Of a stretch of 64,000 nt of DNA, positions 14,896 to 19,238 are shown piece by piece. The number at the start of each line of letters is the position of its first letter. The first letter of the stretch is position 1. A program made the position numbers and the translations under genes. The stretch is from Mycolicibacterium arabiense (lineage in GTDB: Bacteria; Actinomycetota; Actinomycetes; Mycobacteriales; Mycobacteriaceae), in NCBI RefSeq assembly GCF_010731815.2, contig NZ_AP022593.1:124001-188000 (forward strand). Direction: 5' to 3'. Below the pieces are notes generated by a model. The model was not told the DNA's origin and searched no databases. It saw only the letters and a program-made list of their open reading frames with translations.

Positions 14896-16400
14896 TCGAG
14901 CTGACCGTCGCCGAGATCGCCGACATCGTGGGTGGGGAACTCGCCGACGTGTCGCCGGACGAGGCACGTCGCCTGCGGGTCACGGGCACCGTCGAGTTCG
15001 ACTCGCGCGCCGTCGCACCGGGCGGGCTGTTCCTCGCACTGCCCGGAGCGCGCGCCGATGGTCACGACTTCGCCGCGGGCGCGGTGGCTGCGGGTGCGGT
15101 CGCGGTGCTCGCCGCGCGCCCCGTCGGCGTGCCCGCGATCGTGGTCCGGCCCAGCTCGGTATCGGGGGATCCGGACTCCGGGGTCCTCGAACACGACACC
15201 GACGGCTCGGGCGCCGCGGTGCTCGGCGCCCTGGGCAGGCTGGCGGCCGCCGTGGCCGCGCGGCTGGTCGACGGCGGCCTGACGATCGTCGGCGTGACGG
15301 GGTCCTCGGGCAAGACGTCGACCAAGGACCTGCTGGCGGCCGTGCTCGAGCCGCTCGGTCAGGTGGTCGCCCCGCCGGGGTCGTTCAACAACGAACTCGG
15401 CCATCCGTGGACGGTGCTGCGTGCCACCACCGACACCGACTACCTGATCCTCGAGATGTCGGCGCGCCACCCCGGCAACATCGCCGCACTGGCCGCGATC
15501 GCACCGCCGTCGATCGCCGTGGTGCTCAACGTGGGCACCGCGCACCTCGGTGAGTTCGGCTCGCGCGAGGCGATCGCGGCGACGAAATCGGAACTGCCAC
15601 AAGCGGTTCCGGCGTCCGGCGTGGTCATACTCAACGCCGACGACAAGGCGGTCGCCGCGATGGCCGACGTGACGGCTGCCCGCGTGGTGCGCATCGCCCG
15701 TCAGCCGGGCGCGGATCTGTGGGCCGACGACGTCGTCCTCGACGAGCTGGCCCGGCCGCGGTTCACGATGCACTCTGCCGCCGGGTCGGTGCCGGTGCAG
15801 CTGGCCGTGCACGGCGATCACCAGGTGTCCAACGCGTTGTGCGCCGCGGCCGTTGCGCTGGAGTGCGGGGCCGATCTGGAACAGGTCGCGACGGCGCTCG
15901 CGGGCGCGGGCCCGGTGTCCCGGCGCCGCATGCAGGTGACCACCCGCCCCGACGGCGTGACGGTCGTCAACGACGCCTACAACGCCAATCCGGACTCGAT
16001 GCGCGCCGGGCTCAAGGCGCTGGCCTGGATGGCGAAGTCGGGTGCGGACGGGGGAGGCGAGCGGCGCCGGAGCTGGGCCGTGCTCGGCGAGATGGCCGAA
16101 CTCGGTGACGACGCGATCGGTGAACATGACAGCATCGGACGACTGGCCGTGCGGTTGGATGTGTCACGACTGGTCGTCGTGGGAACCGGGAGATCGATGA
16201 GCGCCATGCATCACGGGGCCGTCATGGAGGGATCGTGGGGCAGTGAGTCGGTCATGGTCGACGACGCCGATTCCGCGCTCGCACTGCTGCGCGACGAGCT
16301 GCGCGAGGGTGACGTGGTGCTGGTGAAGGCCTCCAATTCCGCGGGTCTCGGCGTGCTGGCCGATGCGCTGGCTGGCGATGGGGGAGCCAAACCCGCATGA
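14892..16400 (+). CDS. murF: UDP-MurNAc-tripeptide:D-Ala-D-Ala ligase MurF
   Basis: This 502-residue Mur ligase adds the D-Ala-D-Ala dipeptide to complete the stem peptide. GTG 14892 overlaps the murE TGA (GTGA) and opens with [16 protein letters not shown] as in the family. The N-terminal domain has [17 protein letters not shown], the ATP loop [13 protein letters not shown] is at about 134-146, and the C-terminal domain has [20 protein letters not shown]. It overlaps mraY by ATGA, so murE-murF-mraY are coupled. Confidence 0.96.
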
Positions 16401-17476
16401 GGCAGATCCTGATCGCCGTCGGCATCGCGCTGGCGGTGTCGATCCTCTTGACGCCCGTGCTGATCCGGTTGTTCACGCGGCAGGGCTTCGGCCACGAGAT
16501 CCGCGAGGACGGCCCGCCGAGCCATCACAAGAAGCGCGGCACGCCGTCGATGGGTGGCGTCGCCATCCTCGCGGGCATCTGGGCGGGTTACCTGGGCACG
16601 CACCTGGTCGGTCTCGCGCTCGACGGACGGGGCCCGTCTGCGTCGGGCATGCTCGTCCTCGGTCTGGCCACGGCGCTGGGTGCGGTGGGCTTCCTCGACG
16701 ACCTGATCAAGATTCGGCGCTCCCGCAACCTCGGCCTGAACAAGACCGCCAAGACCGTCGGCCAGCTGGTCGCGGCGGTGCTGTTCGGCGTGCTCTGTCT
16801 GCAGTTCCGCAACGCCGACGGCGTGACGCCCGGCAGTCCCGAACTCTCGTACGTCCGCGAGATCGCGACCGTGACGCTGGCGCCCGCGGTGTTCGTGCTG
16901 TTCGTGGTGGTTCTGGTCAGTGCCTGGTCGAACGCCGTGAACTTCACCGACGGACTCGACGGTCTGGCGGCCGGCGCGATGGCGATGGTCACCGCGGCGT
17001 ACGTGATCATCACGTTCTGGCAGTTCCGCAACGCATGCGCCACCAGCCCCGGGCTGGGTTGCTACAACGTGCGCGATCCGCTGGACCTGGCGCTGGTGGC
17101 CGCGGCGACCGCTGGCGCGTGCATCGGCTTCCTGTGGTGGAACGCCGCGCCCGCCAAGATCTTCATGGGCGACACGGGGTCGCTGGCGCTGGGCGGGATC
17201 ATCGCCGGGCTGTCGGTCACCAGTCGTACCGAGACGCTCGCGATCGTGCTGGGCGCTCTGTTCGTCGCCGAGGTGACGTCGGTGGTCGTGCAGATCCTGG
17301 CGTTCCGCACGACCGGGCGCCGGGTGTTCCGGATGGCGCCTTTCCACCACCACTTCGAGCTGGTCGGGTGGGCTGAGACGACGGTCATCATCCGGTTCTG
17401 GCTGCTCACCGCGATTGCGTGCGGTCTGGGCGTCGCGCTGTTCTACAGCGAATGGCTGACTGCCGTCGGGGGCTGA
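16397..17476 (+). CDS. mraY: Phospho-MurNAc-pentapeptide transferase MraY (MurX)
   Basis: This 359-residue polytopic enzyme transfers phospho-MurNAc-pentapeptide to undecaprenyl (decaprenyl) phosphate, making lipid I. Key motifs are FLDDLIKI with the Asp pair, [26 protein letters not shown] and [11 protein letters not shown]. The length equals the M. tuberculosis protein, and the C-terminus [11 protein letters not shown] is complete. The murD breakpoint therefore lies beyond this gene. Only 139 bp separate its stop from the ftsW start, where other mycobacteria carry the ~1.5-kb murD. Confidence 0.97.
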
Positions 17477-17625
17477 CCGCAGCGAACTCCGACCCGCTTT
17501 CGCGACACGCGCCGGATGTCCGACCCATCGAGCGTGTGACAGGGGAGGATTTTGGGGTGCTTGCGACAGATGAGTCATGTGATGCAGGTGTGACTCGAGT
17601 CGCACGGCCAGCGGGGTGGGCGTGA
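17477..17625 (+). pseudogene. murD: Remnant of murD (C-terminal domain fragment)
   Basis: Between mraY and ftsW one frame reads LSRHAPDV at 17497-17520 and then V-T-GEDFGVLATDE to about 17578. From memory this matches the M. tuberculosis MurD C-terminal domain, which has LSRHAPDV followed by GEDTGMPATVE. The Rossmann-like N-terminal domain, the whole ATP-binding centre with GTNGKTTT, and the C-terminal DTVLLAPAGASFDQF segment are absent. About 21 of 49 codons end in A or T, against very few in neighbouring genes, so the frame looks decayed. The frame closes at TGA 17623-17625, which overlaps GTG 17622 of ftsW. No ligase activity is possible. Identity rests on a remembered homologue and on position. 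Confidence 0.75.
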
Positions 17626-19238
17626 CAGCGCTCCTGACCCGGCTGAAGCTGCGCCGGAAGCCTGACGCGACCGCGAATGCGGGCAGCGTCACCGCGCGGG
17701 CCGAATCGGCTCCGCAGGCGCCGCGTACCCGGTTCGGCGCCTGGCTGGAACGACCCATGACGTCATTTCACCTGATCATCGCGGTGGCGGCTCTGTTGGT
17801 CACGCTCGGACTGATCATGGTGCTGTCCGCGTCGGGAGTGCACTCCTACGACGAGGACGGCACGCCATGGGCCATCTTCGGCAAGCAGGTGCTGTGGACC
17901 TGCGTCGGCCTCGTCGCGTTCTACATCGCCATCCGGATGCCGATCAGCCTGATGCGCCGGCTGGCGTTCCCCGGCTTCGTCTTCACGATCATCCTGCTGA
18001 TCCTGGTGCTCATCCCCGGCATCGGTACGTTGTCGAACGGCTCCCGCGGGTGGTTCGTCGTGGCCGGTTTCTCGATGCAGCCGTCGGAGCTGGCGAAGAT
18101 CGCGTTCGCGATCTGGGGCGCACATCTGCTGGCCAGCCGGCGCATGGAACGCGCGTCGCTCAAGGAGATGCTGTTCCCGCTGGTGCCCGGCGCCGTGCTC
18201 GCGCTGCTGCTGATCGTGCTGCAGCCCGACCTCGGGCAGACCGTGTCGCTGGGCATCATCCTGCTCGGCCTGCTCTGGTACGCGGGCCTGCCGCTGCGGG
18301 TGTTCCTGAGTTCGCTCGGCGCGGTCGTCGTCGCGGCGGGCGTCCTGGCGATGTCGGCCGGCTACCGGTCGGCGCGCGTGCAGTCGTGGCTCAACCCCGC
18401 CGCAGACGGCCAGGGCGCCGGTTACCAGTCACGGCAGGCGCGGTTCGCCCTGGCCAACGGTGGCTTCTTCGGTGACGGGCTCGGGCAGGGCACCGCGAAG
18501 TGGAACTACCTGCCCAACGCCCACAACGACTTCATCTTCGCCATCATCGGCGAGGAACTCGGCTTCGTCGGCGCGGGCGGCCTACTGCTGCTGTTCGGTT
18601 TGTTCGCCTACACCGGCATGCGCATCGCCCGCCGCTCGGCCGACCCCTTCCTGCGCCTGCTCACCGCGACGACCACGCTGTGGGTCCTCGGGCAGGCGTT
18701 CATCAACATCGGCTACGTCGTCGGCCTGCTCCCGGTGACCGGTCTGCAGCTGCCATTGATCTCCGCGGGCGGCACGTCGACGGCCACGACGCTGTTCATG
18801 ATCGGCTTCATCGCCAACGCCGCGCGACACGAACCCGAGGCGTGCGCTGCGCTGCGGGCAGGCCGCGACGACCGGATGAACCGAATGCTGCGGCTGCCGT
18901 TGCCCGAGCCGTACGTGCCCAGTCGCATCGAGGCGGTCCGCGACCGCCTGCGGACCAAGCCGAAGCCGCCGAAGGCTCCTGCGAAGCGCGTGGCGAAGGC
19001 ACCCGCATCGAGGGCGGGCGCCAAGGCGCAGCCGAAGGTCAAGCCGAAGTCCGCCAAGGCCGCCAGGTCCGCGCAGGCCAAGGCGAGGGCGGGCACGCGG
19101 GACAAGCCGGCCCGCGACGACCGCAGACGAACCGCGCAGGCGGCCGACCGACGCGAGGGCGGCGCAGTGCATAGTGGAGGCCGTCAACGCCAACCGAGCC
19201 GTCGGGCTCGCCCATTGGAAGGCCAGCGTTACGGGTGA
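17616..19238 (+). CDS. ftsW: Septal lipid II polymerase FtsW (SEDS glycosyltransferase)
   Basis: This is a 540-residue SEDS-family protein with about ten hydrophobic helices between residues 50 and 405. It polymerises lipid II at the septum in partnership with PbpB. Typical pieces are [38 protein letters not shown] and [13 protein letters not shown]. The C-terminal ~140 residues are a Lys/Ala/Pro/Arg-rich cytoplasmic tail ending in ALEGQRYG as in M. tuberculosis. GTG 17616 is followed by an in-frame GTG at 17622 that overlaps the TGA of the murD remnant and is an equally likely start. Confidence 0.96.

Follow-up and report, generated by a model that had tools for sequence, protein, structure and literature searches.

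Probable ftsW control signals survive as a fragment of murD in a Mycolicibacterium clade in which a murL-murD2 pair likely replaces murI and murD

A 64,000-nucleotide stretch of the Mycolicibacterium arabiense genome (NZ_AP022593.1, positions 124,001 to 188,000; hereafter the window) carries a division and cell wall (dcw) gene cluster in which murD, the gene for the ligase that adds D-glutamate (D-Glu), is missing between mraY and ftsW. The clade to which this genome belongs has very probably lost both murD and murI, with a murL-murD2 pair at one new site as their likely replacement and a murD fragment surviving as probable control signals for ftsW. Neither gene is found at its ancestral site, the adjacent murL and murD2 sit between ribA on the upstream side and uvrC on the downstream side, and the carriers of the pair form one clade. 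A broader proposal, which we consider reasonably probable, is that a composite ftsW element is nested in murD across the mycobacteria, and that a lateral exchange of MurI and MurD for MurD2 and MurL exposed it twice independently, in this Mycolicibacterium clade and in Gordonia hirsuta.

The original prediction, that murD is absent from an otherwise intact dcw cluster, was confirmed. The mraY stop at 17476 and the first possible ftsW start at 17616 are separated by a spacer of 139 bp, and pbpB, murE, murF, mraY, ftsW, murG and murC were all found in the usual order. No RNA family reached its gathering threshold in the segment 15000-20000. The features of the junction, in window positions, are as follows.

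16397..17476, + strand: mraY (TIGR00445, 272.7 bits), the left border of the murD-less junction.
17489..17600, + strand: murD remnant, an internal piece of the C-terminal domain, delimited by blastn to the murD genes of relatives.
17501..17520, + strand: box 1, CGCGACACGCGCCGGATGTC, with GACAC (a WhiA-type motif) at 17504-17508; found in 21/21 spacers.
17537..17559, + strand: box 2, TGACAGGGGAGGATTTTGGGGTG, in which the ribosome-binding-site-like GGGGAGGA is followed by a candidate GTG start codon (17557); found in the 21 spacers.
17557..17625, + strand: mini open reading frame (mini-ORF) of 22 codons left from murD, the stop of which overlaps an ftsW start as GTGA.
17622..19238, + strand: ftsW (TIGR02614, 390.2 bits), with a predicted start at 17622 or, in the same frame, at 17616.

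Derivation of the spacer from murD had been proposed from the residues LSRHAPDV and GEDFGVLATDE, which are read in the frame of window position 17497, and was borne out by alignment. In a blastn search (plus strand, word size 7), the spacer gave matches to 69 out of 70 murD open frames from relatives. For 65 frames E was <=1e-5, and the best score was 107 bits as compared with a maximum of 35.6 bits for 200 base-shuffled spacers. The matching part covers spacer positions 13-124 (window 17489-17600) and shows 81.6% identity to nt 1256-1367 of the 1554-nt murD open frame of one relative, L215 (82% over 114 nt). It corresponds to SRHAPDVxxxxxVTGED(S/F)GV and the residues that follow in the C-terminal domain of MurD, while nothing is left of the N-terminal and central domains or of the last ~60 codons, much as originally described. 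An early comparison that gave no match had been confined to the final 60 residues and the end of the gene in 30 relatives from one branch. The possibility that the scrap is unrelated to MurD was ruled out by the wider comparison, in which ~80-100 codons (243-300 nt from RHAP) separate the matching stretch from the murD stop of intact relatives. For the codon comparisons given below, 69 of the 70 murD genes were used, L195 (G009) having been excluded for a broken murD frame without RHAP. In this single-contig murL-negative genome, the murD open frame stops early (404 aa), owing either to an error in sequencing or to a genuine lesion.

When the complete window genome (6.45 Mb, two contigs, rated 100% complete) was searched for MurD, a single gene exceeded the cut-off, located at C2:1005761-1007140 on the minus strand. 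Directly upstream of it lies murL (C2:1007151-1008488), which matches the MurL model with E=1.1e-92 over profile positions 14-407 of 447; the listed open frame is longer, and the Met at which the alignment of relatives begins was chosen as its start. The ligase scored 251.1 bits against the MurD model TIGR01087, as compared with 391-464 bits for the listed full-length murD matches of the genus. Hence, the prediction that the genome must hold another murD or be a damaged assembly was right in that a second MurD-class ligase exists, but the assembly is sound and the ligase is a diverged MurD2, a plain relocation of murD being ruled out by its score and by its position behind murL. The ligase would work like MurD2, and the name is used here in this predicted sense rather than for proven function. 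The order of genes in the region is ribE, ribA, further open frames, murL, murD2, uvrC, rapZ, an unannotated gap and whiA. The whole window genome gave no match to MurI (TIGR00067).

The distribution of these genes was examined in 148 genomes of the genus drawn from a larger group. MurL was found in 13 of them; in one, G008 (70% complete), it is represented solely by a pair of partial matches at the ends of contigs. MurI above the cut-off was present in 134 genomes, comprising none of the 13 with MurL and 134 of the 135 without it, the lone exception (G003) being 72% complete. A MurD-class ligase exceeded the cut-off in 146/148 genomes, with a model that is blind to the distinction between MurD and MurD2, and the best MurD match adjoins MurL in all 13 MurL-positive genomes. 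The dcw copy of murD is gone from the 12 MurL-positive sample genomes with a readable locus (G008, which lacks a dcw locus, does not enter the junction counts), and the same murD-less junction occurs in nine further named genomes, with L288 and G035, which are one genome, counted once. The comparison with close relatives that had been suggested as a check therefore revealed the same loss in 21/21 distinct murL-positive clade genomes with a readable dcw locus, which excludes an assembly fault peculiar to the window genome.

Loss of murI is likewise seen at its own locus. In the three MurL-negative relatives examined, murI lies between a rhomboid gene and a metallo-beta-lactamase-fold gene, and no match to it was found at this place in any of the 13 MurL-positive loci (tblastn, E<=0.01), in which the two flanking genes are neighbours. 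None of 14 murL-positive genomes reached by name, 11 of the clade or so labelled together with Gordonia, Dactylosporangium and Asanoa, had MurI above the cut-off. The MurL-positive genomes are monophyletic (support 0.968) in a tree of MraY and FtsW with 82 tips, 12 of them MurL-positive, and a single replacement thus suffices to explain them.

Species genomes were also scanned, giving 311 MurL relatives, and among the best 80, which were kept, 32 are mycobacteria of the murL clade. Clade members include M. lacusdiani, the MurL of which is 96% identical to that of the window genome, M. sediminis, M. hodleri, M. neoaurum, M. frederiksbergense, M. llatzerense, M. canariasense and M. bacteremicum; these loci further include a record labelled M. 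aurum. Both the window genome and 32/32 named clade loci have MurD2 behind MurL, and ribA lies upstream in all 32 named loci. Downstream, uvrC was found in 30/32 (in two of these ~2 kb away); of the two loci without it, L032 ends 0.2 kb past murD2, and L028 runs for 2.1 kb with no uvrC match. The 33 clade tips group together (0.947) in a tree built from 81 MurL sequences, with Gordonia hirsuta as their sister (1.0), followed by mostly Micromonosporaceae. This placement suggests that murL-murD2 was acquired laterally from another actinobacterium.

As judged by sequence, both proteins resemble enzymes of the MurD2-MurL pathway. MurL keeps 59 of 60 near-invariant residues (columns at least 95% conserved among 81 sequences), including GGGKDS and CGxCPKC. 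The ligase carries Arg at the position of Escherichia coli K348 (R358 in MurD2 of Xanthomonas oryzae, Xoo), both in the window genome and in 32/32 named clade loci, and Leu at the K319 position, whereas eight aligned canonical mycobacterial MurD sequences have Lys at both. The Arg is also present in the MurD2 enzyme described in the available text of PMC8788868. Replacement of K348 by Arg is common to MurL-linked MurD2 of other phyla, where K319 is mostly replaced by Ile, and by Leu in most actinobacteria. Specificity of the clade MurD2 for L-Glu is likely, though not secured by these residues alone.

The part of murD that remains is conserved in a pattern unlike that of its surroundings. In the 21 spacers (12 from the sample and nine from named clade genomes), the boxes were located by the patterns CGACAC[AG]C and GGGGA.GAT within 30-55 nt of each other, and exactly one pair was found per spacer. 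Mean pairwise identity is 0.795 for box 1 and 0.888 for box 2, as compared with 0.455 in the interval that separates them, 0.593 over the next 50 nt downstream and 0.31 in the 58 nt upstream, where 0.27 is expected by chance. With the anchor letters removed (eight of them in box 1), identity is 0.666 in box 1 and 0.838 in box 2, and in a reduced set of 14 spacers treated in the same way it is 0.614 and 0.832, respectively. The distance from CGACAC to GGGGA is 39 nt in 18/21 spacers, 40 nt in two and 41 nt in one. A mini-ORF of 13-23 codons opens at the box 2 codon in 21/21 spacers, and with ftsW starts picked by eye, its stop and the likely start of ftsW share an NTGA overlap in 13/21, whereas in seven the stop lies 2-6 nt before that start; in M. 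canariasense the ftsW start is ambiguous in this respect. In M. llatzerense (L285), ~0.9 kb of other sequence stands between mraY and the element, which is still kept before ftsW. The insert holds an open frame that by eye resembles a small lipoprotein.

The same stretch stands out within intact murD. Silent-site diversity along murD was compared in 9-codon windows in two murL-negative sets of 39 and 30 genomes, which we read as mostly of the fast-growing and slow-growing branches, respectively. In the first set, the 12 lowest of 423 windows fall in the retained piece, two of them straddling its 5' edge, and in the second all of the 12 lowest of 447 windows lie within it. The minimum silent-site ratio is 0.215 in the first set (mean 0.756, standard deviation 0.144) and 0.028 in the second (mean 0.643, standard deviation 0.158). 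GACAC is present in 69/69 intact murD genes and in 12/12 sample spacers. The codon that follows GED and two further residues is ATG in 37/69 and GTG in 32/69 intact murD genes; no other murD column with a mixture of Met and Val is composed wholly of ATG and GTG, and GTG makes up 2074 of the 3945 Val codons in these genes. GAGGA precedes this codon in all intact murD genes but one. In murL-negative genomes, an ORF from this codon would be a MurD tail of 64-83 codons. The murD genomes are related, so that these counts are not independent, but the arrangement resembles an internal ribosome-binding site with a start codon, conserved within murD.

Gordonia hirsuta provides a further case. Its genome has murL-murD2, lacks murD between mraY and ftsW, and gave neither a MurI match nor a second MurD above the cut-off. 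The spacer nevertheless keeps CGCGACACGCCCC...ACAGGGGACGATGGGCGGGTG, agreeing with the mycobacterial consensus at 40/59 positions as against a maximum of 34 in 500 shuffles. As a TAG stop interrupts the old murD frame between the boxes, retention in this species is at the DNA or RNA level. Given that murD is present in most mycobacteria, its loss in G. hirsuta appears to be separate. In Asanoa and in Dactylosporangium, both murL-positive with a murD-less dcw cluster, a single CGACACGC occurs near ftsW, perhaps by chance.

Taken together, the strongest silent-site constraint in murD and retention in 21/21 spacers indicate that the remnant most likely functions for ftsW, as a control element nested in murD, and a view of the scrap as dead debris is not upheld. 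Box 1 would represent a WhiA-type site of an ftsW-specific promoter, for which the prerequisites are present, namely GACAC upstream of ftsW and a WhiA gene in the window genome. Box 2 would supply a ribosome-binding site and start codon, from which translation of the short ORF may pass ribosomes to ftsW and thereby couple the two. Following the gain of murL-murD2, with its predicted activity, D-Glu could be supplied and attached by another route, murD would become redundant and the sequence around the retained piece would be free to decay, unlike the piece itself. If murD carries an ftsW promoter together with a coupled start site for the murD tail, this would explain why that piece alone outlived the gene.

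Several observations weigh against this interpretation. The boxes were found via short anchor patterns, so that the raw identities include the anchor letters. The 21 clade spacers share one ancestor and hence reflect a single event rather than independent samples; separate support is therefore limited to the intact murD sets and Gordonia. No consensus -10 hexamer is obvious by eye downstream of GACAC in box 1. MurL of the window genome scored 310.9 bits, as compared with a Xanthomonadales-specific cut-off of 700 that 0/148 genomes reach, and the gene is therefore called MurL-like by orthology, outside that equivalog. The position of E. coli D182 (E197 in Xoo MurD2), one of two stereospecificity residues published for MurD2, is Asp in 33/33 clade MurD2, as in canonical MurD, and MurD2 may thus take D-Glu as well. 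Asp is also found at this position in Gordonia hirsuta and in six further aligned ligases, including that of the genome RYN_182, and the remaining aligned MurL-linked ligases have Glu. The window genome encodes a relative of D-amino-acid transaminase, a class IV aminotransferase that scores 131.6 bits as against a cut-off of 277. Racemase-like matches under the MurI cut-off occur in MurL-positive G070 (73% complete, 66.7 bits) and in murL-positive M. sediminis (L261, 104.8 bits). Lastly, RYN_182 (L067, L289 and L290), a metagenome-assembled genome (MAG) that is labelled Mycobacterium, lies outside the clade and was counted apart, is murL-positive and murD-less with no GACAC in the mraY-ftsW spacer. 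Its murL-murD2 is distant (41% MurL identity) and groups with that of another actinomycete MAG, and it gave no MurI match; perhaps it represents a further independent replacement or a mislabelled MAG.

Other explanations were considered for the missing genes. The gene murD is essential in mycobacteria, and a gap of 1.4 kb in a damaged assembly from which murD had dropped out would look alike. This explanation is exceedingly improbable and was ruled out by the junction that the relatives share and by the loss of murI, which is missing at its own locus in 13/13 genomes and tracks murL across the 148, in addition to the completeness of the two-contig assembly. It is also improbable that murD2 still adds D-Glu supplied by the class IV aminotransferase, with MurL doing something else. 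The Asp at the D182-equivalent position would fit this, as would the occurrence of the aminotransferase in 5/5 MurL-positive genomes of a 60-genome sample. However, the enzyme is also found in 12/55 MurL-negative genomes, which have MurI, and it scores best with branched-chain models, below every cut-off. A D-amino-acid transaminase proper was rejected as the D-Glu source, with no match above the cut-off in the 60 genomes, leaving the class IV enzyme as the rival. Furthermore, the replacements of K348 and K319 shared with MurL-linked MurD2 of other phyla, the conserved position of MurD2 behind MurL in the named loci and the near-invariant residues kept by MurL all speak against another role for the pair.

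As to the fragment itself, passive debris in which decay is incomplete would be expected to have no protein function as MurD, and the fragment has none. This reading is very improbable, as the DNA upstream has fallen close to chance while both boxes stand far above it even without the anchors, the piece is kept in M. llatzerense despite the insert and in Gordonia hirsuta, and it coincides with the minimum of silent-site diversity of intact murD in both genome sets. Retention as a small gene for a useful peptide of 13-23 codons would account for an ORF that is open in every spacer, with a good ribosome-binding site and first residues alike in many, but it too is unlikely. The length and sequence of the ORF vary, box 1 and the box spacing lie outside it, murL-negative genomes would make the longer MurD tail instead, and in Gordonia hirsuta the murD frame is stopped between the boxes.

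A second, lone mraY away from the dcw cluster was seen in two genomes, whole in G035 (L163, G035:C8:205000-220000; 77% identity) and in several pieces on the 341-kb second contig of G096 (L164, G096:C2:228000-243000). No other dcw genes matched within these 15-kb stretches. A plasmid of Tsukamurella tyrosinosolvens also carries a mraY.

The D-Glu branch of peptidoglycan synthesis is commonly regarded as invariable in mycobacteria, in which both MurI and MurD are being pursued as targets. M. neoaurum, M. hodleri, M. bacteremicum, M. canariasense, M. llatzerense, M. sediminis, M. lacusdiani and others, as well as the record labelled M. aurum, are predicted to be without both enzymes, which bears on the choice of stand-in species for work on the cell wall. 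The clade offers a natural experiment in which an essential step was replaced, and the loss of murD acts as an evolutionary deletion scan, the surviving part of which points to an ftsW control element within intact murD. No report of MurL or of MurI loss in mycobacteria was apparent in the literature, covered mostly by title and the start of abstracts, with subscription papers largely outside it (reviews PMC8788868 and PMC5808125). The available text of the MurD2-MurL review names neither a mycobacterium nor Gordonia (PMC8788868).

QatC, QueC and TtuA belong to the PP-loop enzymes and adenylate by means of a GGxDS-type motif. A structural model of the M. lacusdiani MurL orthologue (m59bced111a89, L024:6001-7335; predicted local distance difference test score, pLDDT, 93.6) was nearest to QatC in a Foldseek search (E=6e-6, template modelling (TM) score 0.42), followed by TtuA and QueC (E 0.003-0.007), and no solved MurL structure was found by sequence. 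The predicted fold of MurL is thus similar to the PP-loop ATP pyrophosphatase fold of these proteins, whereas identity is low (~15%), TM-scores are weak and the substrate is different. The likeness is consistent with activation by adenylation in MurL, as far as the low TM-scores allow, and if true would place among the adenylating enzymes a protein said in the available text of PMC8788868 to have no known conserved domains.

The mycobacterial pair resembles the MurD2-MurL pathway of Xanthomonas oryzae, Micromonospora and Salinispora, as described in the available text of PMC8788868, in that murL and murD2 are adjacent, MurI is absent, no D-amino-acid transaminase exceeds the cut-off, Arg occupies the K348 position, and GGGKDS and the near-invariant MurL residues are kept. 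It differs from that pathway in its location between ribA and uvrC, in the Asp at the E197-equivalent position and in the murD remnant that stays in the dcw cluster.

The predicted control element has a counterpart in Streptomyces venezuelae, in which a GACAC site located 269 bp upstream of ftsW is bound by WhiA and is taken by the authors to indicate an ftsW-specific promoter (PMC3781837), and WhiB joins WhiA there (PMC4850268), according to the available parts of these papers. For Mycobacterium tuberculosis, a promoter upstream of murE has been reported, and the available text describes no test for an ftsW promoter (PMC3605390). As in S. venezuelae, GACAC is found upstream of ftsW within the dcw cluster of mycobacteria, where it would be a WhiA site as predicted from sequence, and the RHAP codons that bear it lie 243-300 nt before the murD stop, a place similar to that of the 269-bp site. 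The mycobacterial piece differs in adding a conserved internal ribosome-binding site and start codon to the putative promoter.
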